64,000 nt of DNA. Source: a virus. Each line of letters starts with the position of its first letter. The first letter of the stretch is position 1. Under the pieces are notes generated by a model. That model made no database searches and was not told the origin of the DNA. It worked only from the letters and a program-made list of their open reading frames with translations. The position numbers and the translations under genes were made by a program. The DNA lies in IMG/VR virus record IMGVR_UViG_3300028802_000007, positions 1 through 64,000 of that record. One strand, written 5' to 3'. Below, one piece after another: positions 11,618 through 43,953 of this stretch.

Positions 11618-11647
11618 TTGACACCCCCACCACAGATGGAGGACAAT
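11618..11647 (+). promoter_or_regulatory. Rightward promoter, sigma-70 type
   Basis: TTGACA at 11618-11623, 18 bases, then GACAAT at 11642-11647 (four of six to TATAAT). It is 47 bases upstream of the first rightward gene and its ribosome site. This is the best candidate for the promoter of the rightward operon. Confidence 0.5.
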
Positions 11648-11989: not shown

Positions 11990-12435
11990 CCGACATCGAC
12001 CTGTGCGTCTGCGGCCATGAGGGCTGGGAGGGCCACACCCACGACGACAACATGTGCCTGACCCCCGGCTGCTGGTGCGGCGTCGTCAAGGCCCAGCAGG
12101 GTGCCTCCCTCCACCCGGTGGGCGACCGCTGGATGGTCCGCATCGTGACCGAACCGCTGGGCCTCCTCTGGCACGGGATGGAGCGGGACTGGACCCGCAC
12201 CCGCCAGACCTACGAGGAGGGCACCATCGTCGAGGTCTACGACCGCAAGTACGTCGAGGGCTTCAGCCCCATCGGCCAGTTCGTCACCGCCTACGGTGCC
12301 CGGACCCTCCTCTCCCCCCGTGGTGCCCACGCCCTCTCCCTCCATGGCGGCATCCCTGAGTGGACCCTGACCCGCGACGAGGTCACCACCCTGATGGGGC
12401 TCATCGTCCAGTACGGCGACATCCGCCTCGACTGA
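11986..12435 (+). CDS. Cys/His-rich protein, 149 residues
   Basis: The N-terminus CVCGHEGWEGHTHDDNMC...GCWCG has five Cys and several His in 35 residues, a treble-clef-like or zinc-ribbon site. The rest is a beta-rich body without a recognised family. CxCGHxxxxH signatures recur in several proteins of this operon. Confidence 0.7.
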   Translation: MTDIDLCVCGHEGWEGHTHDDNMCLTPGCWCGVVKAQQGASLHPVGDRWMVRIVTEPLGLLWHGMERDWTRTRQTYEEGTIVEVYDRKYVEGFSPIGQFVTAYGARTLLSPRGAHALSLHGGIPEWTLTRDEVTTLMGLIVQYGDIRLD

Positions 12436-12504
12436 CCCTCACCCCTGACCCCCACCCGGGTCAGGTGCGAGTGCCAGACGGACACTCAGACCAAGGAGGT
12501 CAAC
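12436..12504 (+). promoter_or_regulatory. Two-hairpin intergenic element, copy 1
   Basis: Directly after a TGA stop come TGACCC/GGGTCA (12446-12451 with 12458-12463), then the dyad GAGTGCC (12469-12475) with GGACACTC (12480-12487), then AAGGAGGTCAAC and the next ATG. Five more copies follow in this operon with the same order and spacing. Confidence 0.7.
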
Positions 12505-12879
12505 ATGGACAAGGCACAGGCCAAGGTCGTACAGGTGGCAGTGGGCGAGGCCATCAAGGCCGTCTACGCCCAGCACGGCCTGACCGTCACGTCGTCCCGG
12601 GTCACCTACGACGACTCCACCCTCAACCTGACGGTCAAGGCGACCGTCGCCGATCCGGCGGCGCAAGCCAAGACGTGGGACAACTACGCGCCCGTGTTCG
12701 ACCTCCCTGAGGGCGGCGTCGGCAAGGTCATCACCCTCAACCGCAAGGCCTACCGCATCATCGGGCTGGACCTGAACCGTCGGGCCTACCCGGTGCGGGT
12801 CGAGGACCTCGCCACCGGTCGCCCGGTCCTGTTCAAGGCCCCGGCTGTCGCCCGGGCTCTGGCGTCCCAGACCGCCTGA
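12505..12879 (+). CDS. Hypothetical protein, 124 residues
   Basis: An alpha/beta product with repeated short strands (VTYDDSTLNLTVKATV, then KAYRIIGLDLN and YPVRVEDLATGRPVLFKA), no Cys. Its own strong ribosome site and flanking intergenic elements on both sides suggest high, separately tuned expression. Not recognised. Confidence 0.7.
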   Translation: MDKAQAKVVQVAVGEAIKAVYAQHGLTVTSSRVTYDDSTLNLTVKATVADPAAQAKTWDNYAPVFDLPEGGVGKVITLNRKAYRIIGLDLNRRAYPVRVEDLATGRPVLFKAPAVARALASQTA

Positions 12880-12947
12880 CCCTCACCCCAGCCCCTCACC
12901 CGGGGCTGGTGCGAGCGCCACGTCGGCACTCAAGCAAGGAGGTCAAC
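12880..12947 (+). promoter_or_regulatory. Two-hairpin intergenic element, copy 2
   Basis: Hairpin CCAGCCCC (12888-12895) with GGGGCTGG (12902-12909), then dyad GAGCGCC (12913-12919) with GGCACTC (12925-12931), then AAGGAGGTCAAC. Same layout as copy 1; the first stem differs in sequence but still pairs fully. Confidence 0.75.
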
Positions 12948-13301
12948 ATGACCGTCAAGGAACTCATCGAGGCGCTGTCGTCCATGGACGAGGACGCCAC
13001 CATCCGCATCGCGGGCCAGCCCTCCTATCCCATGGAGGCGGAGTTCATCGGGCTGGGGGGCCAGGTTTCCGCCGGATCACCCGACGGCGACGACGAGTGC
13101 GCCGACTGCATGGACCGTCGGTCCGACCACGTCGCCCAGTCCTGCACCCTCAAGGACCTCGACGACGACACGCCCTGCCCGTGCGAGGGGTTCGAGGAGC
13201 CCGCCAAGGACGACGAGTCGGGCGTCTGGCTGGTGGTCGGCGACAACATCGGCTACGGCGTCCCCCGCGAGGTCTACGACACCGCCCGCTACGGCTGGTA
13301 G
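12948..13301 (+). CDS. Hypothetical protein with Cys cluster, 117 residues
   Basis: The N-terminus TVKELIEALSSMDEDATI resembles a small domain seen in several phage accessory proteins (helix, then acidic turn). The middle has DDECADCMDRRSDHVAQSC and PCPCEGFEE, a probable zinc site. No enzyme motif. Set between two intergenic elements. Confidence 0.7.
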   Translation: MTVKELIEALSSMDEDATIRIAGQPSYPMEAEFIGLGGQVSAGSPDGDDECADCMDRRSDHVAQSCTLKDLDDDTPCPCEGFEEPAKDDESGVWLVVGDNIGYGVPREVYDTARYGW

Positions 13302-13379
13302 ACCCTGACCCTCACGGGAGCCCCGGTATCCCCGGGGCTCTGGCGAGCGCCAGATGGGCACTCAGGCAAGGAGGTCAAC
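13302..13379 (+). promoter_or_regulatory. Two-hairpin intergenic element, copy 3
   Basis: Nine-base-pair hairpin GAGCCCCGG (13318-13326) with CCGGGGCTC (13332-13340), then dyad GAGCGCC (13345-13351) with GGCACTC (13357-13363), then AAGGAGGTCAAC before the ATG at 13380. Confidence 0.75.
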
Positions 13380-13727
13380 ATGGCACTGACGAAACAGGAC
13401 CTAGAGCGGGCCGTCGAGGACGAGCGCCGTCTGGGGTCCGTCGGCTACAACCTCGCGTTCGACCACGGCCAGAGGCTTCAGGCCAAGGGTCGCGCCATCG
13501 TCCTGCGCGAGGCCAACCGTCAGGGCTGGTCGTACGACGACCTCGTCCTGTGGGTGGACTCGAAGTACGGTCGCTGGTTCTGGGACAGCCTGTATGGCTG
13601 TTCTGATCCTGACGGCGCGGCTCAGGCCGTGACCCTCGCATGGGTCGCCCCGGGCGAGGGCGACTACGTCTACCAGCCGACCAGCGTCGAGGCCCACGTC
13701 ACGCGGGTCGAGGCCTACCGGCGATGA
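13380..13727 (+). CDS. Hypothetical protein, 115 residues
   Basis: Helical N-terminal half (LTKQDLERAVEDERRLGS) and an aromatic middle with WSYDDLVLWVDSKYGRWFWD. Family unknown. Overlaps the next ATG by four bases. Confidence 0.65.
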   Translation: MALTKQDLERAVEDERRLGSVGYNLAFDHGQRLQAKGRAIVLREANRQGWSYDDLVLWVDSKYGRWFWDSLYGCSDPDGAAQAVTLAWVAPGEGDYVYQPTSVEAHVTRVEAYRR

Positions 13728-14038
13728 CGTACATGCGGCCATGCCGACGGTGCGGCATCGAGTACGACTTCGACCTTGACCGGACCATGAACGGCCCACA
13801 CGCCCACGGCCCTGAGCCTCGAGGCTGGTCACCGGGCGGCATGACCGTCGCCCGGGAGGGCACCGCCCCCGGGACCCGGGTCCGGCTCATCCACCCCCGC
13901 GAGGGCCTGACCGTCGGTCAGGTGTTCACCGTCGGGTCCACCAGCCCGGAGCATCACTCCCAGAATGGTGGCGGCTACACCATCTACACGACGGACGGCC
14001 AGCACCTCTGGTCCGTCTGGCTGGAGGTCGTCGGGTGA
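13724..14038 (+). CDS. Small protein with N-terminal CxxC, 104 residues
   Basis: Starts MTYMRPCRRCGIEYDFDL (CxxC knuckle) and continues with a beta-rich segment VRLIHPREGLTVGQVFTVGS, similar in style to small SH3-like barrels. Function unknown. Its last bases overlap the GTG of the methyltransferase gene. Confidence 0.65.
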   Translation: MTYMRPCRRCGIEYDFDLDRTMNGPHAHGPEPRGWSPGGMTVAREGTAPGTRVRLIHPREGLTVGQVFTVGSTSPEHHSQNGGGYTIYTTDGQHLWSVWLEVVG

Positions 14039-14625
14039 AGGTCCTCGTGGTGTGCGAGTACAGCGGGCGCGTCCGCGACGCCTTCAGGGCGAAGGGGCAC
14101 GAGGCCATCTCGTGCGACCTCCTGCCGACTGAGGTCCCCGGGCCTCACATCGTCGGGGACGCACTGGCTGCGATCCGCGACGTTCAGCCCGACCTCCTCA
14201 TCGCTCACCCGCCCTGCACCTACCTCGCCAACAGTGGCGTCCGGTGGCTGTACGGCGGCAAGGGCACGACCATCGACCCGGTCCGCTGGGGCCAGATGGA
14301 GGAGGGTGCCGCGTTCTTCGCCTCCCTCCTCAACGCTGACGTGCCCATGGTCGCGGTCGAGAACCCGGTCATGCACGGCTACGCCCGGGCCATCATCGGG
14401 CGCGGTCAGGATCAGATTGTCCACCCGTGGCAGCACGGCCATGGCGAGCAGAAGGCGACCGGGCTCTGGCTCCGGGGCCTCCCCCTCCTGCGCCCCTCCG
14501 ACATCGTCGAGGGCCGGGAGCAGCGCGTCTGGCGGATGGGTCCGTCAGCCGACCGATGGAAGGAACGCAGCCGCACCTTCAGCGGCATCGCATCGGCCAT
14601 GGCCGACCAGTGGGGTGACCTGTGA
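14035..14625 (+). CDS. Short C5-cytosine methyltransferase-like protein
   Basis: The 196-residue product looks like a minimal Dcm-type Rossmann methyltransferase. MKVLVVCEYSGRVRDAF is a motif I-like loop for SAM, PDLLIAHPPCTYLA contains the PPC motif whose Cys attacks C6 of cytosine, and MVAVENPVMH is the ENx motif. It is shorter than typical bacterial enzymes (over 300) and lacks an obvious target-recognition domain, as do similar phage proteins. It may protect phage DNA from host restriction or be a degenerate relative. GTG start overlaps the preceding stop. Confidence 0.75.
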   Translation: MKVLVVCEYSGRVRDAFRAKGHEAISCDLLPTEVPGPHIVGDALAAIRDVQPDLLIAHPPCTYLANSGVRWLYGGKGTTIDPVRWGQMEEGAAFFASLLNADVPMVAVENPVMHGYARAIIGRGQDQIVHPWQHGHGEQKATGLWLRGLPLLRPSDIVEGREQRVWRMGPSADRWKERSRTFSGIASAMADQWGDL

Positions 14626-14876
14626 ACGTGACCTGTACGACATGCCGCAAGGGGCCGCACATCCCGTCGGCACCCGACTACCACCTCTACCGGACGGCGT
14701 CCGTCCGTCCGCCTCGCCCAGCCCTGGCCGTCGCCGGCCCGATCGCGACCGGCGATTGCCCGACATGCGCCCGGGGTGGCTTCGCTCCCAGCCATGACGG
14801 CAGCAGCCGCTGCGAGTCAGGCTCCATCGCATCCGGCGGGACCCGGTCGCACTGCTCCTGCGACACCTGCTTCTGA
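14622..14876 (+). CDS. Cys-rich zinc protein, 84 residues
   Basis: CTTCRKGPHIP near the start, CPTCARGGF in the middle and HCSCDTC at the C-terminus give four Cys pairs, enough for two zinc sites. GTG start overlapping the methyltransferase stop. Role unknown. Confidence 0.65.
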   Translation: MNVTCTTCRKGPHIPSAPDYHLYRTASVRPPRPALAVAGPIATGDCPTCARGGFAPSHDGSSRCESGSIASGGTRSHCSCDTCF

Positions 14877-14948
14877 CCCTCACCCCTGCCCCTCCATCCG
14901 GGGGCAAGGGCGAGTGCCAGATAGGTACTCAACCATGGAGGTCAACCC
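14877..14948 (+). promoter_or_regulatory. Two-hairpin intergenic element, copy 4
   Basis: Stem TGCCCC (14887-14892) with GGGGCA (14901-14906), then dyad GAGTGCC (14912-14918) with GGTACTC (14924-14930), then ATGGAGGTCAACC before the ATG at 14949. Confidence 0.75.
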
Positions 14949-15191
14949 ATGACACCGCTCGAACTGGCAACCCGACTGGGCCAGAGCCCAGACCTCGACA
15001 ACCGCATCACGGGCGTCGCCATCATCCTGCGCGGCCTGACCGACGACGACGGCGACCGTCAGGGCTGGCCCATGACTCCCGCCGTTGCGATCCGCGCCGC
15101 GAAGTACATCGGCGTCGAGCCCACCCCGGAACTGGTCGCGGCGGTCCTTGAGTTCGCCCCGTCCCTCCCCGACTTCTACCTCAACCGATGA
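14949..15191 (+). CDS. Hypothetical protein, 80 residues
   Basis: Helical acidic product beginning MTPLELATRLGQSPDLDN; no Cys, no membrane helix. Unrecognised. Stop overlaps the next ATG. Confidence 0.6.
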   Translation: MTPLELATRLGQSPDLDNRITGVAIILRGLTDDDGDRQGWPMTPAVAIRAAKYIGVEPTPELVAAVLEFAPSLPDFYLNR

Positions 15192-15382
15192 CCGTCCAGC
15201 ATCACGTCACCGCCAACGCCCGGGCGGCGATGGAGAACGACGGCGTCGAGGTTCTGATCCTGACGGCGGAGCAGCGCCGCGACCTCGTCCGCGCCCTGAC
15301 CATCGCCGTTGACACTGAGCTCGAGGCGACCGACCGGTGGGTCGCCCTCATCAACCTCATCCAAACTGGAGCTCCACTTTGA
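15188..15382 (+). CDS. Hypothetical protein, 64 residues
   Basis: Amphipathic helical product with EVLILTAEQRRDLVRALTIA. Unrecognised. Its stop is overlapped by a TTG start (TTGA). Confidence 0.55.
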   Translation: MTVQHHVTANARAAMENDGVEVLILTAEQRRDLVRALTIAVDTELEATDRWVALINLIQTGAPL

Positions 15383-15471
15383 GCCTCGCCGACAAGCTGA
15401 GGACCCTCCGCGACGTGACCTTCGTGGTCCTGTGCGTGATCCTGTTCCTCGCCATCGCGAGCCAGCCATGA
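15379..15471 (+). CDS. 30-residue membrane peptide
   Basis: TTG start overlapping the preceding stop; LSLADKLRTLRDVTFVVLCV continues into a hydrophobic helix of about 17 residues. Overlaps the next ATG. Function unknown. Confidence 0.5.
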   Translation: MSLADKLRTLRDVTFVVLCVILFLAIASQP

Positions 15472-15869
15472 CCGACTTCGAGGACTGCTGGCCGTTCCCC
15501 TGCCGTGACTACCACGCCACCTCAGCTCATCAGGAGGACCCGTGCCTTTGCCGGTGCCATCGGCCAGCGAACGACTACATCGGCCAGGGTGCGGATCAGG
15601 CCACGACGCCTCCACCGGAGGGACATGTACCTGGGCTTGACACGCTGATGGCGAGCCTTCAGACTGACGACATGAGGTCAACCACCGGGCTCCCCCACGA
15701 CTTCGGTCAGGTCTGCGATTGCATCGACTGCGTCGGCTGTGATCACAAGCACGTCGAGCCCGATGACGACGGCCTGTTCCTTCACTTCAACCGGTGCGCC
15801 GACTGCGACCAAGTCGTGGTCCTCACCGCCCCGGACGAAGACGGTCAATCCTTCTGGGAGGTCATGTAG
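15468..15869 (+). CDS. Cys/His-rich protein, 133 residues
   Basis: Two Cys-rich regions: CWPFPCRDYHA...CLCRCHR at the N-terminus and CDCIDCVGCDHKH with CADCD at the C-terminus, linked by an acidic stretch. At least two zinc sites are likely. No catalytic motif seen. Confidence 0.65.
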   Translation: MTDFEDCWPFPCRDYHATSAHQEDPCLCRCHRPANDYIGQGADQATTPPPEGHVPGLDTLMASLQTDDMRSTTGLPHDFGQVCDCIDCVGCDHKHVEPDDDGLFLHFNRCADCDQVVVLTAPDEDGQSFWEVM

Positions 15870-16208
15870 ATGGGCATCATCATCGAAGGGCACGTCGTGG
15901 TCAGCACCAAGACCCTGACCGGACACAAGGGCCACCACCTGACGGTCGAGGACGACTCGTTCGGGCCTCGCCTGTGGTGCGTCGAGGACGCCGTGGTCGT
16001 CGCGTCGGTCCCTCAGCCCCGGACCGATCTGCCATGCGGCTGCATCGACGTGGCGAGCCACAACGAGGACCTCGCCGTCCAACTCGACCTCCGCAAGAAG
16101 TTCCGCATCCCCAAGTCCACCTGCGTCGGCTGCTATCTGGGCGACGACGGCATCAGCATCCACTCCTGCGCCATCCACCCTGAGAGGTACTGGCCGGAAG
16201 CTTCCTGA
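15870..16208 (+). CDS. Hypothetical protein, 112 residues
   Basis: Beta-rich N-terminus (MGIIIEGHVVVSTKTL) and a C-terminal part with four spaced Cys (PCGC, CVGCYLGDD, SCAIH), suggesting one zinc site. Starts directly after the preceding stop. Unrecognised. Confidence 0.65.
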   Translation: MGIIIEGHVVVSTKTLTGHKGHHLTVEDDSFGPRLWCVEDAVVVASVPQPRTDLPCGCIDVASHNEDLAVQLDLRKKFRIPKSTCVGCYLGDDGISIHSCAIHPERYWPEAS

Positions 16209-16277
16209 CCCTCACCCCAGCCGCCGACCAGCGGCTGGTGCGAGCGCCAGATTGGCACTCATCAACGGAGGTCAGCC
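16209..16277 (+). promoter_or_regulatory. Two-hairpin intergenic element, copy 5
   Basis: Perfect eight-base-pair stem CCAGCCGC (16217-16224) with GCGGCTGG (16231-16238), then dyad GAGCGCC (16242-16248) with GGCACTC (16254-16260), then CGGAGGTCAGCC. Compared with copies 2 and 6, one stem pair changes from C-G to G-C on both arms, a compensatory change. Confidence 0.8.
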
Positions 16278-16844
16278 ATGACCAAGACCATCGAGTACGA
16301 GGTCCCCGCCTTCAAGGGGTCGCCTCAACTCGCCCACTACGGCGAGTGGGACGGGAACACCCTGCTCCACGCCATCCTCAACGGCGACGGACCGGCGGTC
16401 ACGGAGTTCCTGGCCGGGTTCGTCGCGGATCGCAACACGGAGTTCGACGCGGTCGAGTTGCGGTACGCCATCGTCGCCCGGGCCGTCGAGGCGACGACCG
16501 ACCTCGCCAAGGGCGTCGAGACGACCGGGTTCAAGGCCTTCGCCAATCCCGATCCCAAGGCCAAGTACCGCAAGCCCAAGGTCACCCACGAGGGCGAGGG
16601 CTGCGAGGCCAACTACTGCGACCTCGCCGCCAAGTACCGCCTCCCGGCTCCGCCGGAGGGCTTCGACGGGACCGTCCTCACGCTGGCATGCCAGAAGCAC
16701 GCGGTCGAGGCCATCGACCGTCAGGCCTACTTCGTCGCCCGGGGCGGCAACAGCAGGTACGTCTACCTGACGTCCGACGGACACAGGCAGATCAAGGAGG
16801 CCGCTCGCGACGCGCTCCTCGAAGCCGTCAAGGCCGCCGTCTAG
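16278..16844 (+). CDS. Hypothetical protein, 188 residues
   Basis: A soluble mostly helical protein with a small Cys/His group (GEGCEANYCDLA). No family recognised. Flanked by intergenic elements and served by its own strong ribosome site, so probably well expressed early. Confidence 0.7.
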   Translation: MTKTIEYEVPAFKGSPQLAHYGEWDGNTLLHAILNGDGPAVTEFLAGFVADRNTEFDAVELRYAIVARAVEATTDLAKGVETTGFKAFANPDPKAKYRKPKVTHEGEGCEANYCDLAAKYRLPAPPEGFDGTVLTLACQKHAVEAIDRQAYFVARGGNSRYVYLTSDGHRQIKEAARDALLEAVKAAV

Positions 16845-16915
16845 CCCTCACGCCAGCCCCTGACGGGGGCTGGAGCGAGTGCCACACGGGTGCTCAAGCA
16901 AACAGGAGGTCAGCC
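16845..16915 (+). promoter_or_regulatory. Two-hairpin intergenic element, copy 6
   Basis: Stem CCAGCCCC (16853-16860) with GGGGCTGG (16866-16873), then dyad GAGTGCC (16877-16883) with GGTGCTC (16889-16895), then ACAGGAGGTCAGCC. A degenerate remnant of the element lies at 19064-19113 before another GGAGGTCAACC. Confidence 0.75.
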
Positions 16916-17251
16916 ATGACCCAGAGCGTAGTCAACGTCGATGACCCCAGCGCGGCTGACGGCATCGCCGACATCCGCCCGGATCAGGTTCGGAGCGCCT
17001 ACGACGGACGCGCCAACCGGTGCGCGTGCGGCTGCTCAGGCAACTACTACGGCCCCGGCTACCCGGAGTTCAGCATCGCCACGACCGACCGGATGGTCGG
17101 CCTCATCCTCAAGCGCATGCAGCGCCGCGCCGCCAAGGCCAAGGCCGGCGAGGTCGAGCCACTGTGGACCTTCACCTACTCCGACGGGTCCCGCATGTTC
17201 GCCTACCAGACCGCCTCGCGTCTGATCCGCATCGAGACGGTGGCCCTGTGA
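16916..17251 (+). CDS. Hypothetical protein, 111 residues
   Basis: Contains NRCACGCSGNYYGPGYPEFS, a three-Cys turn, and a helical basic segment (LKRMQRRAAKAKAGEVE). Possibly a nucleic-acid-binding zinc protein. Stop overlaps the next GTG. Confidence 0.65.
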   Translation: MTQSVVNVDDPSAADGIADIRPDQVRSAYDGRANRCACGCSGNYYGPGYPEFSIATTDRMVGLILKRMQRRAAKAKAGEVEPLWTFTYSDGSRMFAYQTASRLIRIETVAL

Positions 17252-31940: not shown

Positions 31941-33515
31941 ATGGTCAAGCTCGCTGCCCGCACGAAGCGGGCTCCCACCGCGCCGGTCAAGACCACGAAG
32001 GGCCGGAAGCCGGACACCATCACCGCGAACGCTGGTGCTGGGTTCAGTCGCGATGCCAAGTCGGAGCTGTTCCTCCTCGCGGTGACCAACATGGTCAGCG
32101 AGGACACCTTCTACGAGCGCGGCAAGAACCGTGACAAGCGGTTCGTGGACCTCATCCGTCAGGTCGCCCTCGAGGACGCCGACTGGATCGCTCGCCTCGT
32201 CCCGTACCTGCGCGACACCATGAACATGCGATCCGCCAGCATCGTCATGGCCGCCGAGCTCGTCCACGCCAAGCTGACCCGGCCCGTGGCCGCGTCCAAG
32301 ATCAGCAACCGCACCATCATCGACTCCGCCATCAAGCGGGCCGACGAGCCGGCGGAGATGCTGGGCTACTGGATGAGCGAGTGGGGCAAGACCTTCCCGC
32401 AGCCGGTGAAGCGCGGCGTCGCCGACGCTGTCGTGCGCCTGTACAACGAGCGCAGCCTGATCAAGTACGACGGTGGCGACAAGGCCATCCGCTTCGGCGA
32501 TGTCATCGACCTCACCCACCCGGAGGCCAAGGCCCCGTGGCAGTCGAGCCTGTTCAAGTACGCCCTCGACGACCGCCACAAGCGGGACATGCCCCTGCCG
32601 TGGTCGGCGGAGGCAGCGCCGCTGCCGACGGTGCAGGCCAACCGCAACGCGATGATGCTCGACCAGGAGACGTTCCGGGCCTTCTTCTCCGCCGACTGGG
32701 TGGAGAACGCGGGCCTGACGTGGGAGCAGGCGTCGTCCAAGTACGGCAAGCTCGACGCGAAGTTCTGGGAGGCGATGATCCCGAACATGGGCATCTTCGC
32801 CATCGTGCGGAACCTCCGCAACTTCAGCGATGCCGACATCAGCACGGCCACCCAGGATCTGGTGCGGGCCAAGCTGTCGGACGAGGAGGCCATCCGCAAG
32901 TCGCGGATGTTCCCGCTCCGGTTCATGGCCGCGTACACCGCGACCAAGAGCCTGACCTACGCCCGCGAGCTCGAGGTCGCCATCGACACCGCCACCTCCA
33001 ACGTGCCTGCCCTCAAGGGCAAGACGCTGGTGCTGGTGGACGTGTCCGGCTCCATGGACGCTGCCCTGTCGGCCAAGTCCGACGTGAAGCGGTTCGCCGT
33101 GGCGTCGGTCTTCGGCGCGGCTCTCGCGATCCGTGCGGAGGACGCGGACCTCGTGGCGTTCTCGGACACCACAGCGGTCATCCCGACCCGCAAGGGTGAC
33201 TCCGTGCTGGTGACGGCCAACGCCATCCTCCAGGCCCTGCCTCACGGCGGGACCCAGACGTGGCAGTCGGTTCAGCGGACCTTCAAGGGTCACGACCGGA
33301 TCGTCATCATCACCGACGAGCAGGCCGACATGGGCTACACCGCCGGGTCCATCCCCGACGGGGTGAAGCTGTACACCTTCAACGTGGCTGGCTACCGTGT
33401 CGGCCACGCGCCTTCGGGCAAGAAGGACAAGTACACGTTCGGCGGGCTCACCGACGCGGCCTTCACCGCGATCGAGCTGCTCGAGCGGGGAACCGACCAG
33501 ACCTGGCCGTTCTGA
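31941..33515 (+). CDS. rsr: TROVE/Ro60 protein (Rsr)
   Basis: The 524-residue protein has a TROVE domain (about 30-345; IPNMGIFAIVRNLRNF at 280-295 is the family signature) forming the HEAT-like ring that binds Y RNA and the ends of misfolded RNAs. A von Willebrand A domain follows, with an intact MIDAS: DVSGSMD (367-373), GGTQT (436-440) and ITDEQ (457-461). In bacteria Rsr with Y RNA joins exoribonucleases in RNA decay and survival under stress. AGGAG is six bases before the ATG. The upstream array of four Y-like RNAs makes a full phage Ro-Y RNA system. Length matches cellular homologues. Confidence 0.95.
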   Translation: MVKLAARTKRAPTAPVKTTKGRKPDTITANAGAGFSRDAKSELFLLAVTNMVSEDTFYERGKNRDKRFVDLIRQVALEDADWIARLVPYLRDTMNMRSASIVMAAELVHAKLTRPVAASKISNRTIIDSAIKRADEPAEMLGYWMSEWGKTFPQPVKRGVADAVVRLYNERSLIKYDGGDKAIRFGDVIDLTHPEAKAPWQSSLFKYALDDRHKRDMPLPWSAEAAPLPTVQANRNAMMLDQETFRAFFSADWVENAGLTWEQASSKYGKLDAKFWEAMIPNMGIFAIVRNLRNFSDADISTATQDLVRAKLSDEEAIRKSRMFPLRFMAAYTATKSLTYARELEVAIDTATSNVPALKGKTLVLVDVSGSMDAALSAKSDVKRFAVASVFGAALAIRAEDADLVAFSDTTAVIPTRKGDSVLVTANAILQALPHGGTQTWQSVQRTFKGHDRIVIITDEQADMGYTAGSIPDGVKLYTFNVAGYRVGHAPSGKKDKYTFGGLTDAAFTAIELLERGTDQTWPF

Positions 33516-36142: not shown

Positions 36143-37723
36143 CTACGCCGTGCGGGCTTGGCAGTACACGGTTATTCCGCCGGCTGGGGCCGACGTAAGC
36201 GTGAACGAGGCGGCGTCAGGATCGGTCTCGACGAAGGCCACACCCTTGACCAGCGGGGTCATCGTGCCGCCCGATCCGGTGTAAACCTGAAGCGTGCCCG
36301 GGATGTACGGCGGGACGATGTGGAAGAGGGTGCGGCTGCCGTTGGCGGCCTCGACCGCCTCGTCCGCGTAGTACGAACCGTACGGGTAGGAGTCGGACGT
36401 GGCGTCGGTCCCGACGACCGGCTGGGGCTGGGGCTTCGGGCGCATCTTGCGGAGGAACTGCCACCACCAGACGGGGTCCGACATCTGGAGGCCGAACGTG
36501 CCCTCGAACTGGACGAAGGTCACCGGATCGTTGTCGGGGTTGTCCGATGGCAGGGTCGGGAAGGTGATCTTCACCTGACGGAGCGGGACGTTGATGGTGT
36601 ACGGCGTGGCTCCGTTGTCCTCGCTGAAGGACCACAGGTTGAGGGTCGTGACCATGCCCGGGATGAGCTGCTGTCGCTCGCCGCCGGAGATCGGCACGTC
36701 GTGGCTGAACCACGTCAGGACGAACTGGCGATCGGGGTTGACCAGGCCCTGCGCTCCTGTCACGGGCGACGTGCCAGAGGTGGAGCCGCTGATGAGGGCG
36801 TTGGCTCGAGCGGTCACCTCAGCCGAGCTCTTGAAGCGGTCCTCGCCCGGGTGGTTCTCGGCCAACTGCCAGCGACCGTTGTCGGTGATGCTGGTCGCGT
36901 TGCTCTTGTGGGCCATCACGATGGTGCCGTTGGTACCGATAGGCGATCCGCCCCAGATGAAGACCTCGTTGATGACCGACGTGCCGTCGTCGGTGACGGT
37001 GCCGTCACGCCAGCCGATGAAGCTGGTGCCGTCGGGGATGTCGCTGAAGCCCCACGGTGCGGCGGTCGTCTGGAGGGCCAGCCAGTTGAGGTTGGCTCCG
37101 CCGTCCACCCAGTAGATGCAGGCGAGCTGGCCGTGGATCGTGGTCTCGATGACGAGCGAGTCGAGGACCGCACGCATCGTCTCGCCCTGGCTGGGCCAGA
37201 CGTACTTCACGGTGAAGTCGTTGACGTGATCGACCTTGGTGGTCACATCGAGCGTGCCGCCACCACTGAAGCCCAGATCGAAGTACTGCGCGTAGAGGGC
37301 GATGATGTGCTTGTCGTTGCCGTTGGCACCGACGCCGACCGACGGGATGATGTGGGTGTAGTCGGTGGTCCGGCGGAGGACGCGCTTGTCGAGCAGGTGG
37401 TTGTAGTCCACCCCGTCGAGCTGCCATCGGCGACCGGTCACGGGTTCTGACGTGTCGAGCGCCGGAAAGAAGAAGTCGCGGGTGACCTGAGTCACGAAGC
37501 CGCCGAACATCTGGACGGTGCCCAAGGTCATCTCGAGCCTGCCACCCGTGACGAACGAGTGGGTCTGGTTCGGGTCCTTGACCGTGATGTGGAAGGACCC
37601 GGGAACCGCCGCAGCTTGGAGCTCGAAGTAGGCGTCGATGTAGGTGCAGGACGTGGTGATGTCAGTCGTCGTGCCCGACGGGTCGATGTAGATGATGGTG
37701 ATGTCTTCGGGCACCTTGCTCAT
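36143..37723 (-). CDS. Tail-tip/baseplate protein
   Basis: The 526-residue product shares a domain with the giant protein encoded upstream: GVDYNHLLDKRVLRR here and GGDYNRFLDKRIL there, plus NEVFIWGG versus NDAIVWGAGKG and NGRWQLAEN versus HGRWQYGNF. This domain type occurs in phage distal-tail/baseplate hub proteins. The C-terminal 80 residues form a separate beta domain (GTLQVYTGSGGTMTPL). It overlaps the end of the giant gene by four bases and is expressed with the tail operon. Confidence 0.8.
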   Translation of the reverse strand: MSKVPEDITIIYIDPSGTTTDITTSCTYIDAYFELQAAAVPGSFHITVKDPNQTHSFVTGGRLEMTLGTVQMFGGFVTQVTRDFFFPALDTSEPVTGRRWQLDGVDYNHLLDKRVLRRTTDYTHIIPSVGVGANGNDKHIIALYAQYFDLGFSGGGTLDVTTKVDHVNDFTVKYVWPSQGETMRAVLDSLVIETTIHGQLACIYWVDGGANLNWLALQTTAAPWGFSDIPDGTSFIGWRDGTVTDDGTSVINEVFIWGGSPIGTNGTIVMAHKSNATSITDNGRWQLAENHPGEDRFKSSAEVTARANALISGSTSGTSPVTGAQGLVNPDRQFVLTWFSHDVPISGGERQQLIPGMVTTLNLWSFSEDNGATPYTINVPLRQVKITFPTLPSDNPDNDPVTFVQFEGTFGLQMSDPVWWWQFLRKMRPKPQPQPVVGTDATSDSYPYGSYYADEAVEAANGSRTLFHIVPPYIPGTLQVYTGSGGTMTPLVKGVAFVETDPDAASFTLTSAPAGGITVYCQARTA

Positions 37724-40700
37724 GGGAGGGCTCCGTTCGTGATGTAGGCCATTGTGACGTCGGCGCTCTCCGTCAAGGCTGCGTGCATCGTGATGAGACC
37801 GAAGTCGTCAGCGGTCAGGGTCCACGCCGATCCGCTCTGGAGGATGCCGTTGACGCTGACGAGGGCCGTCCCGGTCAGGATGGAGTTGGTCGCCTGCCAC
37901 AGGGAGTTCACCGGGTACGAGCCGCCCGACGGGGTGTCCAGCGGGGTCAACACGTCGTTCAGCAGGTGCGTGCCTGACGGCACGGAGCCGGGGCCTGACG
38001 GCGGGATGACGGTACAGGTCCCGACTTGGATCTCGCCGATGTTCGTGGTCCCGCTCGTCGCCCCGTTCTGGTTGACGAGGTAGACCCGGTTGTAGTTGTA
38101 GTGCAGCGAGTCGATGGCAACCGCCGCGCCCGCTGGCTTGCTCCCTGCCGAGTCGGGCCAGACGGTGAGGATGCCTGCTGACCCGTCGTACTCGGCGGTG
38201 TACCACGCGCCCGCGATCCAGGAAGAGCCACCTCCGACGTCGGCGAGGCTGAGCGTAAAGATCTGGGCCTGCACGGTCATGCGGATGGTCAGGCCGCCGC
38301 TTGGAGAGAACTGGAAGTACATCTCGATCCACCCGAAGCCCAGCGTGTTCTCGATCCTGAGCAACCACTGGGTGGAACCGCTGCCTCCACCGTTCGGGAG
38401 AGCGGTCGCCATGAGCCGCATGCTCAGGGTGAACCCCGGGTTGGCGAAGGGGACCACGTTCGAGTTGTAGTAGCCAGCGACGCCCAGGCTCTCGGCGAAG
38501 AAGGACGCACCGTTCACGCCGCTGTTCCCGCCACCGACGAACTGGGTCGTATACGCCGTGCCAGACGAACTCGTCCCGATCGTGTTCGTGCTGGTGGTCC
38601 GGTTGAAGTTGTCCCAGACGTAGACGTCAGCGCAGTTGGAGCCGCAGGGCATCCCCTCGTAGTCGAAGCCGATGGGTCCCCAGAAGGTGTCGGTGGTGTA
38701 GTTGGAAGACGACTGAGTGTTGAACCGCGTGTAGCCACCAGTCACGCCAGCCTGCGTCAACTCGACCATCCAGTCGGCGGGCTCGCTCGTGCCCCACCAG
38801 ACCTTGCCCCGACTGACGCTGGCGCTGTACTCCCACTTCAGGTTGATGTTGACGTTGGTGGGCACGTCGGGAATGCCCACAGAGGCAGAGCCCGCACCTG
38901 CCACGGCGAGCTGGAGCTCGCACCCAGCAGGGCTGATCTCCAAGGTCATCCTCCGCTCGCCGCCGGGGACCGGGGAGAAGGGGGCGCTGATCTGCTGGAC
39001 GACGAGACTGAACGCCACTGCGTGGCTACCGAAGGCTGTGCCGTATCGGATGAAGGTCGTACAGGTGAAGTCGTCTCGGAACGGGGCCGCGAAGACCGAG
39101 CCACTGTCTGGGATGTAGGCCATCACGGAGTTAGTGGTGCCACCGCTGTTGAGCGGGACTGCCGCGATCCCGTTCGATACAGCGATGCTGGGGTCACCCG
39201 AACCGTTCACCCACGCTGGACCGCCTTGACTCGGAATGCCCCAGCCGCCCGTCACGACGCGCTGGAAGTTGTCGAAGTTGGACCCGGAACAGGCGCTGAT
39301 GCCGTTGATGTTGAGCTCGTACAGCCGGACGGTCTGGCCGATGTTGGGCAGGAAGAACCAGAAGGTGTTCAGGGGCATCCCGGTGAAGGCCGTGCTCCCA
39401 CAGTCGAGCATGAAACCGGCGGGCTCCGACGCACCCTCCGCCCAGACGTTGGCCTGGACCTGACCACCAGTGATGACCATGTGGAAGTTCCAGATGCCGT
39501 CGTAGGCCAAGTAGGCGGCACCCGTGTTGATGCTGTCACTGACGGCTCCGCCACCCGCATCACTTCCGTACACGGCCCAGTACCCGTCGCCGCCGTCCTT
39601 GTCGATCCAGAAGTCGAAGCCCATATAGTCGTTGAAGAGTTGCGGATTGCCCTCGGACCAGTAGAACTGCGGCTGGGCGTTGTGGTCACCCTCCGTCGTC
39701 GTGTTGGCGATGGACATCTGCCACGTCATATCAACCGCAGACAGGCCCAGGCTGTCCAGCATCATCGTGATGTCCGACCCGCCTGAGCCTGTGTTCTGGG
39801 CCTGCTCAGGGTTGGCCTCAGCGAAGCCGCTGTACACACGGGTGGCACGGTTGATGGCATCGATCTCGTACTGAAGCTGCCCGGGCCCTGCCACCCACAC
39901 CCTGCCGGAGTCGCTCGTGGCCCAGCCACTCACCACAGAGCGGCTGAAGGTGTCGGTGATGCCGCAGTCAGCTTCGGTGCAGCCGGTCTCCTCCTGACCA
40001 CCGACCGGGAGGGGCGTCCCACCGCCACCGCCCAGACCCGGGTAGCCGGTCGGCAACCACGGATCGAACATGCTCCAGACCGCGTCGATCTCCCAACTCA
40101 ACTGGAGGGTGAAGAGCGGGTCGTCCGGCGTCGGCCAGGTGATGGTCATGGTGCGGATCGGGAGGACATCGTCGTGGGTGTCAGGAGCTCCCGGGTAGGC
40201 GGGCGGCATGTAGAACTGGGAGTTGTGGATGTTGACCACGTCGCCGACCGCGAAGACCGGCTCGTAGGTGCGAACCTCGATCGAGCGCATGGGGTTCTTG
40301 GCACCGCGCAGCGAGGCAGGGGAGCCCTCGACAGCCGCTCGAGCCACGGCGTTGGCGGTAGCCTGCTTGTAGATGCCGGAGGTGAAGTTGCCGTACTGCC
40401 AGCGGCCATGGTCGCTCTGGCTGGGGGCACTCTGGTAGCGGGACTTGACGATCTGATTGCTGCCCTTGCCAGCGCCCCAGACGATCGCATCGTTGATCAT
40501 CTCGGTCGCGTCCTCGACGATCCGCGCCTCGCGGTAGCCCACGTCCATCGCGCCCGACGGAGTGTCGGTCAGGGTGTACGGGCTGCTGACGAGGTCGGCA
40601 TCGACGTAGGTCACGACCTTCTGCGGGGTGACGTAGAAGATGGCTCCCGTGTCCCACGACAGGTGGAGCAGCACGTCTCGCAACGTGAAGCCACCTTGGG

Positions 40701-43700
40701 CCACGTTGCCACCGGTCTTGGCCGTCACGCCCTTGATGTCGAGGACGCCCTGACCGACGTGCTGGAAGTTCTTGGTGAAGCCGTCGGTGTCGAAGAACGG
40801 CCAGAGGTTGTTGAGGATGGTGTTGTCGGCGGTCCCAGCGGCGTAGTCCCACGTCCTGCCCGGGTGGGCAGAGTCGTGGAGGATGCGCTTGTCGAGGAAG
40901 CGGTTGTAGTCGCCGCCGACGATGTGGAAGATCCGGGCATCACTCAGCGGGGCCTTCTGGACCGGGAAGGGGAACGCTCTGGTGACCAGCAGGACCCAGC
41001 CGGCCCAGCGCAGGATGCCGCCGATGTAGAGCTCGATCACGTCGCCGGTCTCGAAGGTCAGGTCGTGGTCCTGGTCCACCACGTCGAACTCGCACTCACC
41101 GGTCTGGGCGTTGGTCTTGGCGCTGAACTTGGCCGTCTTCCAGATGACGTGGCCTCGAGACATCTCGACGCCGTTGATGTAGATGCGGGTCGGCACACCG
41201 GTCAGCGGCAGCGTCCCGTTGCCTCCGCCGGACCCACCGCCACCGCCAGATCCGCCACCGCCCCCGGTGCCCGGGATGAACCAGTTGTAGTCGATGGTGA
41301 ACGAGGGCTGGTACGTCAGGTTGATGAGGGCGTTGGCGGTGAAGGTGCCACCGAAGGTGTAGGCGAAGCGGGCGTCAGCGGTGAACGACCCGGTGCGGGT
41401 GCTCTTGAAGAGCGCGTTCGCCGTGAACGTGCCCGTCCGACTGGCCCTGATGGTGGCAGAGGCCCTGAAGTAGCCCTGCGTGATGAAGGCGTCGGCGGTA
41501 TAGGAGCCCGTCCTCGAGGCCTTGATGACGGCCCTGGCCGTGAACGAGCCGGTGCGGGTCGCTCTGATGTAGGCGTCGGCGGTGAAGCGCCTGCTGGCGA
41601 TGACCGCGTTGAGCAGGACTCTGTTGGGGGTGATGCCATAGAGCGCGAAGTTGTCGATCTTGCTGACTTCGCTACCCTCAGGGGAGTAGTAGAAGTCGAG
41701 GAAGGGAACCCCGTTGTTGACCGGGCCCACCTTGTCGTTCATCCGACCCGACGTCAGCGGCGACGACGGCCTCGCAGAGCCGACCTTCCAGACGCGCATC
41801 TCGACGTTCTGGAGAGCGTCGTAGACGAGCTCCGCCGTGTACCACGAGCTCGCATCCAGCGCGAGGGTGGCGTCGGGCACGTTCGGGGAGAAGGACCACT
41901 GACTGGTGCCGACACGCCAGTCACCGGACGTACCGTCCGCCGCGACGTACATGTAGACCGGAGTCGAGGGGTCGTCGAGGTTGATGCCGTACGCCGGGTG
42001 GGCGTTGGACTGGCTCGCCAGCGGCGGCACCCAGAAGTCGAACTGGACGGAGCCTGCTGTCGGACGCGCCCCGAAGCGCCACGACGAGTAGTTGTAGTCG
42101 GCTGGGTGGCCCGTTGGGTGAGCCGGCAGGACGATGCTCGCCCCATCGACGAAGACGTTGTCTGCCGACGACGTGGAGGTGTACGAGTCGTCGTTCGACC
42201 AGACCCACGGAGCCCCAAGCGATCCTGTCCCGGGCCCGACCGACCGGTTGAAGTCGTCACTGAGGACGACCGCGAAGGACTGGGTGATGGTGGCGAGGCG
42301 GATGGCGTCGGCGGTGAAGTAGCCACCGCTTGGGATCTTCAGCCAGGCGTTCGCCGTGAACGAGGCGGTGACGCTCTTCTTGATGGTCGCCGACGCGGTG
42401 TAGGAGCCGGTGCTGATGATCTTGATCCACGCAGACGCCGTGCGCGATCCGGTCTGGGTTCGGAAGCGAACCGCGTTCGCGGTGTACGAACCGGTCTGGG
42501 TGCGCTTGCGGATCGCGTCCGCCGTGAAGGTCGCGGTCTGGGTGCGCCGGGTGAAGGCATCTGCCGTGAACGAGCCGGTGCGGGCGGCGAAGATGACAGC
42601 GTTGGCGGTCAGACTCGAGGTCTGGTTCCGCAGGACGACGGCATTCGCCGTGTACGACCCGGAGCGGGTGACACCGATGACAGCGTTGGCCGTGAAGGAA
42701 CCGGATCGGCTGGCGCGGATCACGGCGTTGGCGGAGAAGGAGGACGCCCCGGACACGAAGAGCTGGGCGTCGGCGGTGAAGGACCCGGCCCGGGTCGCCT
42801 TCAGGACGGCATTCGCGGTCAGGGAACCAGTGACGGGCCTGAGGAGGAACGCGTCCGCCGTGAAGGAGCCAGTGGCAGTGCGCTGGATGACCGCGTCGGC
42901 TGTCGTCGATCCGGTGCGGGTCGCCTTGACCACGGCGTTCGCCGTGAAGGAGCCAGTGCGCGTGGCCTTGATCAGGGCGGCTGCGGTGAAGCTCCCCGTG
43001 CCCGTCGCCTTCAGGATGGCGTTCGCGGTGAAGGTGCCACCCGGGCCCACGCCAGTGCTGATGTAGGCATCGGCGGTGAGGTTCAGCGGCTTGGCGATGA
43101 ACGAGGCACCGATGAGGGCCTTGCGGTTCGCGGCACCACCGGTCGAGCCGATGGTGTACGAGCCTGAAGCAGCCGTCGCGATCTGGTAGTTGACCCCGAT
43201 GGGCGGACGACCGCCGGACTCGAAGTCCTCCGTCATGGAACCAGCCGGGGTCATGCCGACCGGGACGGTGTCGTTCCTCTGGAGGAGGCCGCTGACGAGG
43301 AGGATGACGTCGGCGAGGCCCGGGGTGATGGACTGCGTGCCAGCGGTGGTGAACGAGGACGTCCCGACGAAGGTGTCGAACGCCTTGATGTTCGAGAACT
43401 CCATGACGTCGAACGCGACGTTGTTGGCAGTGCCCGACCAGGTGACCGTGGTCGTCGCCGACAGCGATGTCGTGACGAACTGGTACCACATCACGATGGG
43501 CCAGTCGCCCGCCGTGACACCCGTGTACTCGCGGTCGATCTGTGTCCACGTCCCGTTGTTCAGGGACGCCGTCTCCGCCGTGACGCCGTTCCGCTTGGCG
43601 GAGGCCGCGACGAGGAGGTTGCCGATGGTCGGCGTGGCACCTAGCGTGATGGAGACGTTGGCCGACGCGGTGCCGCTGGACCCGTTGCTCTGGACCTTCG

Positions 43701-43953
43701 TGGCCGCCGTCTGGGAAACCGTCTTGAGGACGGCGTTGGCGGTGAAGGAGGCAGACGTGCCCAGCACCTTGATCACCGCGTTGGCGGTGAAGACGTTGAA
43801 GATCCTTGGGGCTAGGACCTCGACGGCAAGCTGAGTGACCCGGGCGTTGGGTACGCCGTTCTCGAGGGTCTCGGCTGCAAGCTGTGTGACTCGAGCGTTT
43901 GGAGTGCCTAGCTCGAGTGCCTCGATGGCGGCCTGCGTGACGCGGGTCGCCAT
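37720..43953 (-). CDS. Giant tail protein: repeats, baseplate-hub domain, lectin-like domains
   Basis: The 2077-residue protein is modular. Residues 1-60 have three RVTQLA(A/V)E units; about 85-290 a beta domain; about 300-560 copies of a 14-residue unit (GSFTANAVVKATRT). Next comes a LamG/concanavalin-like domain starting SDDFNRSVG (about 570-770), more repeats, and a Gly/Ser linker at about 900. A baseplate-hub domain like 36143-37723 lies at about 910-1310. Three further DxFxR-type lectin-like domains (DTFSRSV, DNFQRVV, DNFNRTT) and a C-terminal beta domain complete it. It probably forms the tail tip and binds host surface sugars. Confidence 0.85.
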   Translation of the reverse strand: MATRVTQAAIEALELGTPNARVTQLAAETLENGVPNARVTQLAVEVLAPRIFNVFTANAVIKVLGTSASFTANAVLKTVSQTAATKVQSNGSSGTASANVSITLGATPTIGNLLVAASAKRNGVTAETASLNNGTWTQIDREYTGVTAGDWPIVMWYQFVTTSLSATTTVTWSGTANNVAFDVMEFSNIKAFDTFVGTSSFTTAGTQSITPGLADVILLVSGLLQRNDTVPVGMTPAGSMTEDFESGGRPPIGVNYQIATAASGSYTIGSTGGAANRKALIGASFIAKPLNLTADAYISTGVGPGGTFTANAILKATGTGSFTAAALIKATRTGSFTANAVVKATRTGSTTADAVIQRTATGSFTADAFLLRPVTGSLTANAVLKATRAGSFTADAQLFVSGASSFSANAVIRASRSGSFTANAVIGVTRSGSYTANAVVLRNQTSSLTANAVIFAARTGSFTADAFTRRTQTATFTADAIRKRTQTGSYTANAVRFRTQTGSRTASAWIKIISTGSYTASATIKKSVTASFTANAWLKIPSGGYFTADAIRLATITQSFAVVLSDDFNRSVGPGTGSLGAPWVWSNDDSYTSTSSADNVFVDGASIVLPAHPTGHPADYNYSSWRFGARPTAGSVQFDFWVPPLASQSNAHPAYGINLDDPSTPVYMYVAADGTSGDWRVGTSQWSFSPNVPDATLALDASSWYTAELVYDALQNVEMRVWKVGSARPSSPLTSGRMNDKVGPVNNGVPFLDFYYSPEGSEVSKIDNFALYGITPNRVLLNAVIASRRFTADAYIRATRTGSFTARAVIKASRTGSYTADAFITQGYFRASATIRASRTGTFTANALFKSTRTGSFTADARFAYTFGGTFTANALINLTYQPSFTIDYNWFIPGTGGGGGSGGGGGSGGGNGTLPLTGVPTRIYINGVEMSRGHVIWKTAKFSAKTNAQTGECEFDVVDQDHDLTFETGDVIELYIGGILRWAGWVLLVTRAFPFPVQKAPLSDARIFHIVGGDYNRFLDKRILHDSAHPGRTWDYAAGTADNTILNNLWPFFDTDGFTKNFQHVGQGVLDIKGVTAKTGGNVAQGGFTLRDVLLHLSWDTGAIFYVTPQKVVTYVDADLVSSPYTLTDTPSGAMDVGYREARIVEDATEMINDAIVWGAGKGSNQIVKSRYQSAPSQSDHGRWQYGNFTSGIYKQATANAVARAAVEGSPASLRGAKNPMRSIEVRTYEPVFAVGDVVNIHNSQFYMPPAYPGAPDTHDDVLPIRTMTITWPTPDDPLFTLQLSWEIDAVWSMFDPWLPTGYPGLGGGGGTPLPVGGQEETGCTEADCGITDTFSRSVVSGWATSDSGRVWVAGPGQLQYEIDAINRATRVYSGFAEANPEQAQNTGSGGSDITMMLDSLGLSAVDMTWQMSIANTTTEGDHNAQPQFYWSEGNPQLFNDYMGFDFWIDKDGGDGYWAVYGSDAGGGAVSDSINTGAAYLAYDGIWNFHMVITGGQVQANVWAEGASEPAGFMLDCGSTAFTGMPLNTFWFFLPNIGQTVRLYELNINGISACSGSNFDNFQRVVTGGWGIPSQGGPAWVNGSGDPSIAVSNGIAAVPLNSGGTTNSVMAYIPDSGSVFAAPFRDDFTCTTFIRYGTAFGSHAVAFSLVVQQISAPFSPVPGGERRMTLEISPAGCELQLAVAGAGSASVGIPDVPTNVNINLKWEYSASVSRGKVWWGTSEPADWMVELTQAGVTGGYTRFNTQSSSNYTTDTFWGPIGFDYEGMPCGSNCADVYVWDNFNRTTSTNTIGTSSSGTAYTTQFVGGGNSGVNGASFFAESLGVAGYYNSNVVPFANPGFTLSMRLMATALPNGGGSGSTQWLLRIENTLGFGWIEMYFQFSPSGGLTIRMTVQAQIFTLSLADVGGGSSWIAGAWYTAEYDGSAGILTVWPDSAGSKPAGAAVAIDSLHYNYNRVYLVNQNGATSGTTNIGEIQVGTCTVIPPSGPGSVPSGTHLLNDVLTPLDTPSGGSYPVNSLWQATNSILTGTALVSVNGILQSGSAWTLTADDFGLITMHAALTESADVTMAYITNGALP
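42270..43085 (-). repeat. 42-bp tandem repeats encoding 14-residue units
   Basis: About 18 imperfect copies of a 42-base unit encode G-S-F-T-A-N/D-A-V-I/V-x-x-x-x-T on the minus strand; a shorter array lies at about 41300-41610 in the same gene. The protein pattern is conserved while the DNA copies have diverged. The same unit recurs about 60 times at 60.7-63.4 kb. Confidence 0.85.

Follow-up and report, generated by a model that had tools for sequence, protein, structure and literature searches.

The window, i.e., the whole 64,000-nt stretch of DNA that was analyzed, forms the start (bases 1-64,000) of a 130,935-nt virus record. It contains six copies of a two-hairpin sequence of ~70 bases, which recurs between many early genes in a family of uncultivated phages. 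From 5' to 3', a copy consists of a stop codon, CCCTCAC, a GC-rich hairpin (P1), GCGAG, a dyad (P2), a short spacer, GGAGGTCA and the next start codon, with both hairpins together spanning about 57 nt. All six copies, and the genes that they precede, are on the + strand. Copy A1 (12433-12504, 68.6 bits with the covariance model) extends from a TGA stop codon to the Shine-Dalgarno sequence (SD) of a gene with no assigned function (12505-12879), while copy A2 (12877-12947, 72.1 bits) precedes another such gene (12948-13301). Copy A3 (13306-13379, 72.5 bits), which lies downstream of a TAG at 13299-13301, is followed by a gene (13380-13727) heading a block of overlapping genes at 13380-14876. Similarly, copy A4 (14874-14948, 71.4 bits) is followed by a gene (14949-15191) that heads an overlapping block at 14949-16208. 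The last two copies, A5 (16206-16277, 76 bits) and A6 (16842-16915, 65.9 bits), each precede a gene with no assigned function (16278-16844 and 16916-17251, respectively). All six genes start with ATG, directly after the copy. More generally, the genes downstream of copies, including those outside the window, mostly have no assigned function.

Self-comparison of the record revealed that it consists of two colinear and related phage genomes of ~75 kb (A and B), which are placed end to end with a putative join. At the start of the record, the offset between the two is 74,942 bases (position 407 aligns with 75,349), and A and B are about 67-86% identical in their aligned parts. Genome B carries eight further copies, at 86,896-92,209. 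A preliminary description of the window, in which six copies were reported in a constant order, was right about all six and about their order, but the element is more common than noted. The 14 copies in A and B are all on the + strand and stand at gene junctions, spread over 4.5 kb in A and 5.3 kb in B, near the start of a block of rightward genes diverging from the structural genes. Judging from gene content and order, with an ERF recombinase and methyltransferases, this block is probably an early operon.

The P2 dyad reads GAGYGCC-N5-GGYRCTC, with a 5-nt loop that opens with an A. The exact dyad pattern has four matches in the window, versus none in 100 shuffles, and the remaining two of the six copies show a single mismatch to it; the sequence is GGACACTC in copy 1 and GGGTGCTC in copy 6. 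As their ribosome-binding site, the copies have GGAGGTCAAC, GGAGGTCAACCC or GGAGGTCAGCC. Some details of the preliminary description need amending. A TGA running into CCCTCAC, which had been assigned to each copy, is found in most of them, but the stop codon is TAG in copies 3 and 6. In copy 6, CCCTCAC follows directly, while in copy 3 the TAG is offset, lying a few bases 5' of TGACCCTCAC; this copy keeps UGAC although it does not serve as a stop there. Likewise, the dyad is present as described, but the spacer after GCCA, which had been given as four or five bases, is always four, and the fourth pair of P2 is imperfect in most of the 14 A/B copies (C.A in nine, U.G in three, U-A in two and never C-G). 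At this pair, G is found only opposite U (Fisher p 0.027, for copies that are not independent of each other).

Placement of the element is strikingly regular. In 20 copies, the gap between the upstream stop codon and the downstream start codon is 65-78 nt, and the copy fills it from the stop codon to the ribosome-binding site; the TGA upstream of copy E2, in the related phage G004, closes only an 11-codon ORF. In the zones of A and B that contain the element, where gene starts were partly called by hand from overlap and SD, all 14 junctions with an element have gaps of 67-78 nt, and all 15 junctions without one are at -4 to +1, i.e., the genes overlap or abut. Junctions without an element are likewise at -4 to +1 in the corresponding zone of the related phage G003. 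Since the element fills the gap, this gap rule is partly its consequence. A gene in these zones of A and B either overlaps the stop codon of its neighbor or carries the element upstream. The genes preceded by the element are unrelated to each other. Gene order is not the same in A and B, elements stand at the heads of blocks, and the genes following A1, A3, A4 and A5 have orthologues in genome B that follow copies B5, B2, B6 and B7, respectively. The DNA methyltransferase gene (14035-14625, + strand) illustrates the alternation, since it overlaps the preceding gene in A, whereas its orthologue in B has element B1 upstream instead.

We then analyzed base pairing in the two hairpins. P1, which is 8-10 bp long, has 97.3% of its cells paired in the 14 A/B copies, and seven of its eight pairs show changes on both sides. 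When P1 and P2 are taken together in A and B, 29 cells are changed on both sides versus 12.1 in shuffles, all of them in P1, a comparison that treats the copies as independent and, the copies being related, overstates their independence. With the same reservation, the covariation score is 0.413 versus 0.138 for shuffled alignments (0/500), slid controls scoring 0.04-0.11, and it reaches 0.465 versus 0.135 when 20 copies from five phages are used. The freedom of the P1 sequence is best seen in orthologous copies, the arms of which are 44-100% identical overall: nearly all pairs still form in A1 and B5 (50% identical) and in A4 and B6 (44%). The view that the first hairpin is conserved, and not merely its sequence, is thus borne out by covariation within and between genomes. 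P2, which is 7 bp long, shows little variation within A and B and covaries only between phages, where compensatory pairs are GCC/GGC, CCC/GGG, CGG/CCG and GUC/GAC. Although the folding energies of the 57-nt copies (-24.5 to -31.8 kcal/mol) are below the regional mean of -18.0 (SD 5.1), the stability of the fold alone is not the argument because about 10% of background windows (elements included) are equally stable.

The search of related phages with a covariance model, which the preliminary description had put forward as a check, extended the family, contrary to the lack of conservation in relatives that formed the first half of its refuting case. A terminase search of IMG/VR yielded 71 loci, and three of the corresponding records proved to carry the element. 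With a model built from the 14 A/B copies, we found seven more copies, one of them partial, in these three further phages: three in G003, two plus the partial one in G004, and one in G005. The best five of these have E values of ~1e-12 to 1e-9. The third G003 copy and the partial G004 copy score lower with this model, and reach 1e-8 and 2e-7, respectively, with a second model that was built including that third G003 copy. In the relatives, too, the copies lie on the divergent side of the terminase, at about the distance seen in A. The element is therefore known from five phage genomes, two of them in one contig. The other terminase loci, most of which are fragments too short to include the region, gave no element match, and the covariance search found no copy in the 71-kb record G006. 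A methyltransferase-based search for relatives yielded no element copies, and neither the gene following copy A1 nor that at 17.7 kb led to any loci when searched with. Among cultured phages, we found no relatives except for distant terminase and methyltransferase similarity, and searches with element-sized queries yielded a single weak match (E 0.2) in one case and none in another. Scans of IMG/VR and GTDB, either for the dyad alone or for CCCTCAC plus GCGAGYGCCA, produced single matches that we took as chance; those inspected individually, all from the dyad-alone scan, are without the element architecture. When the SD was included for a more specific scan, G003 and G004 were the only matches apart from those due to chance.

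A further feature of the element is that the GAG between the two hairpins has two potential partners. One is the CUC of P2; the other is the CUC on the stop-codon side, and pairing with this one extends P1 by a lower stem (CUCRC/GYGAG). This lower stem has an A.C mismatch in A and B, and in 16 of 20 copies overall. It is CUCAC/GUGAG in G005, CUCGC/GUGAG in copy C3 of G003, and UUCGC/GCGAG in copy E3 of G004, where it lies within one long helix. In RNAfold predictions, P2 prevails in most copies, and the lower stem is preferred in A4, B4, C1, C3 and E3, while RNAalifold predicts an extra helix in which CCUC pairs with the GAGG of the SD. Evidence for this last helix is weak because GGAGGTCA is the ordinary SD of the phage, also found at genes without the element, several copies could form only part of the helix, and accessibility barely shifts. 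Indeed, SD accessibility, averaged over 20 copies, is 0.35 for native sequences, 0.45 when the first 12 nt are blocked and 0.376 when the first 10 nt are shuffled; upon folding, blocking the 5' segment frees the SD in some copies (A3, B5, C2 and E2) and not in others. Sequestration of the SD as the sole mechanism is consequently unsupported, since the 5' segment hardly alters mean SD accessibility and GGAGGTCA is generic. The SD is not especially open in the predicted folds either, which argues against its presentation to ribosomes as the only role of the element.

Structure in RNA made from the coding strand is expected to tolerate G-U pairs better than A.C. A wobble-pair strand test showed no coding-strand bias, the antisense reading pairing slightly more cells (sense/antisense values of 94.4/96.3% for P1, 89.3/92.9% for P2 and 82.0/95.0% for the lower stem). 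The RNA reading therefore rests on placement, from stop codon to SD, and on a P1 that is free in sequence but compensated, and a role at the DNA level or in antisense is possible given this absence of bias. Known signals were searched for as well. There is no sigma-70-like promoter at the six window copies, the sole site in the 11-18 kb region being at 11618, and no intrinsic terminator (a GC-rich hairpin followed by a U run) on the + strand of the same region. Rfam 15 gave no match at the gathering threshold anywhere in the contig, window included, and chance matches only at a relaxed threshold. Promoter, terminator, tRNA and Rfam readings of the element were all negative in these searches. 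A Ro60/TROVE protein, which is encoded in A and B, was rejected as an obligate partner since it was not found in G003 or G005, which bear the element.

Together, the placement of the copies and the co-changing paired bases point to an undescribed RNA control element between phage genes. Of the three options raised in the preliminary description, an RNA control element is the best; an operator does not account for the first stem, the arms of which differ freely, and is possible for the dyad. Tentatively, we favor a cis-acting intercistronic element of the early mRNA, which would head a translation block and allow it to be translated independently of its neighbor. The argument is made at the level of sequence, from placement, fixed length, covariation of P1, covariation of P2 between phages, and all-or-none alternation with overlapping junctions. 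We infer that the element acts in the mRNA, where it would mark the head of each translation block. Starting at the upstream stop codon (or a few bases after it, in one copy) and ending at the next ribosome-binding site, it would separate the downstream gene from the ribosomes of its neighbor and present a strong ribosome-binding site beside a self-contained fold. The gene would then be translated on its own, rather than by overlap coupling, and its message might be protected or cut separately. More speculatively, the GAG shared by the hairpins, through pairing with either CUC, could turn the element into a switch with two states, to which a terminating ribosome or a bound protein would respond.

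Several other explanations have to be weighed against this one. One is RNA processing or stability, of which processing was already proposed in the preliminary description. Here, the upstream message would be capped at its 3' end by P1 and the downstream message at its 5' end by P2, with a nuclease cutting near GCGAG, so that genes of the same operon would have separate half-lives. It would explain why P1 pairing is kept while its sequence is free, and why the element lies wholly in untranslated RNA, from stop to SD. However, P1 (8-10 bp) and P2 (7 bp) are short for RNase III, there is no recognizable cleavage site, and a plain end-cap does not need the near-invariant CUCRC, GYGAG and CUC, which makes this explanation somewhat unlikely in our view. 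A new class of intercistronic RNA switch, with alternative helices among four short complementary segments (the CUC at the stop codon, GAG, the second CUC and the GAG within the SD) and the choice between them made by the terminating ribosome or a phage protein, would be a single module re-used six to eight times to set translation of each early-gene block, but we consider it doubtful. The same degree of doubt attaches to a version operated by the ribosome itself, where in untranslated RNA UGACnCUC would pair with the GAGGUCA of the SD while P2 forms, and a ribosome at the UGA would free the SD, a gene being translated only if its neighbor is. The three-way junction given by RNAfold and RNAalifold for many copies, the fact that the most conserved segments across phages (CUC, GAG, CUC and GGAG) are those in competing pairings, and the retention of UGAC in A3 all speak for it. 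Nevertheless, mean SD accessibility is hardly tied to the 5' segment, much of the pairing is broken in B1-B3, A6 and G005, the SD is generic, and the lower-stem alternative has its A.C mismatch in most copies.

The remaining explanations place the action outside translation. A nascent-RNA element similar to put of phage HK022, acting on RNA polymerase to suppress pausing or termination in untranslated gaps, would account for the size (~70 nt), the two hairpins, the early operon and the conserved noncanonical positions (PMC9378689). We consider it quite unlikely, since there are up to eight copies per operon here versus one put site per early promoter in HK022, and each copy is in a fixed arrangement with a stop codon and an SD, signals that polymerase does not read. 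Improbable, in turn, is a DNA operator, with the dyad as a protein site for early transcription, like the proposed role of ESAS or known stoperators. While a repeated inverted repeat in a single orientation, close to where the early operon begins and with wobble pairs that show no coding-strand bias, is what such a site could look like, it leaves unexplained P1, whose arms vary between copies yet pair, the fourth pair of the dyad is imperfect in most copies, and no sigma-70-like promoter lies near those in the window. Finally, the element might mainly be a homologous seam by which small early genes move with their leader, as suggested by the different gene orders in A and B with elements at block heads and by the methyltransferase that has an element in B only. 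However, recombination by itself does not favor compensation between the P1 arms, and this explanation is very improbable.

An important implication of an intercistronic element controlling translation concerns gene expression in phage early operons, which are dense with overlapping genes. To our knowledge, little is known about how single genes within such operons are expressed separately. One structured module at every nonoverlapping junction of the zone, and at no overlapping one, makes this question testable with simple reporters. Moreover, as a strongly covarying RNA family that Rfam does not contain, the element would help annotate gene starts in these uncultivated phages, and it could serve as a portable insulator between genes in high-GC bacteria.

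How does the element compare with known systems? In T4 e/soc-type hairpins and similar leaders, structure in phage mRNA hides the ribosome-binding site. The likeness is that mRNA structure adjoins a ribosome-binding site, but here the hairpins are upstream of the SD and there is no consistent hiding of the SD in the folds. T7 intercistronic RNase III sites are structured RNA at gene borders in a polycistronic phage message, as would be the case here; however, our helices are shorter, and their presence and sequence are tied to the stop codon and SD. In placement, the ESAS of cluster K mycobacteriophages come nearest among known systems. They are imperfect inverted repeats of 17 bp, conserved in sequence from copy to copy, and usually adjoin the 13-bp SAS GGGATAGGAGCCC (PMC3203893, PMC11373665). 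Similarly to our element, these are repeated intergenic inverted repeats just before start codons, almost all in one orientation, and attached to genes of unrelated families (PMC3203893, PMC11373665). In contrast, the 17-bp ESAS repeats lend no support to RNA pairing, according to those who described them (PMC3203893), and the motif contains promoter-like hexamers, SigA-like -35 and -10 (PMC11373665), whereas here the arms of P1 covary while being as little as 44% identical between orthologous copies, the arms of P2 are 7 bp, and the six window copies have no sigma-70-like site. As for SAS, it has four matches with up to two mismatches in the window versus 2.1 expected by chance, none of them at an element. 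The nearest system in shape is the HK022 put RNA, which is ~70 nt long, with two hairpins and noncanonical pairs, is found in early phage transcripts, and causes antitermination through the zinc-binding domain of the RNA polymerase beta' subunit (PMC9378689). Our element shares the two hairpins in ~57 nt, within 65-78 nt from stop to start, and, judging from gene order, probably an early transcript. However, each of the two put sites of HK022 belongs to a different early promoter and lies at it or a few hundred bases downstream (PMC9378689), whereas here six to eight copies fill stop-to-SD gaps inside one operon. Resembling ESAS in placement and put in shape, yet differing from each in the features that define it, and belonging to no Rfam family, the element is new.

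In the copies of the two-hairpin intergenic element carried by genomes A and B, the two related phages of the contig, the fourth pair of the second hairpin (P2) is C.A, U.G or U-A, never C-G. In one copy of the window this pair lies at 12472/12484, and its counterpart in every other A and B copy is limited to these combinations too. It looks as if a wobble-like pairing were being kept at this position.

Element-like sequences were also seen in two other settings. In the IMG/VR relative G004 (sequence L349, 7781-7865), an extra partial copy lies directly upstream of a full one, the two being separated by an 11-codon ORF (MDIRSGYGARS) whose end provides the TGA of the second, full copy. Within a gene, contig positions 94642-94677 (10642-10677 of contig piece L028) weakly match the element's 3' half (GGCGAGCGCCAGACGGGTGCCCA), possibly by chance or as a remnant.

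The contig itself (1-130,935) is composed of two colinear related phage genomes of ~75 kb each, placed end to end with an offset of 74,942. The arrangement could be genuine, as in tandem prophages, or the two could have been joined during assembly. On the minus strand, two very long ORFs (37720-43953 and 60537-67904) contain a repeat of 42 nt (14 residues) that recurs dozens of times, at 41295-43033 and 60743-63966; they probably encode tail or fibre proteins. The rightward region encodes, on the plus strand (31941-33515), a 524-aa TROVE/Ro60-type RNA-binding protein, which was looked for in relatives G003 and G005 and found in neither; genome B has a homologue of this Ro60-type protein at ~106907-108505.
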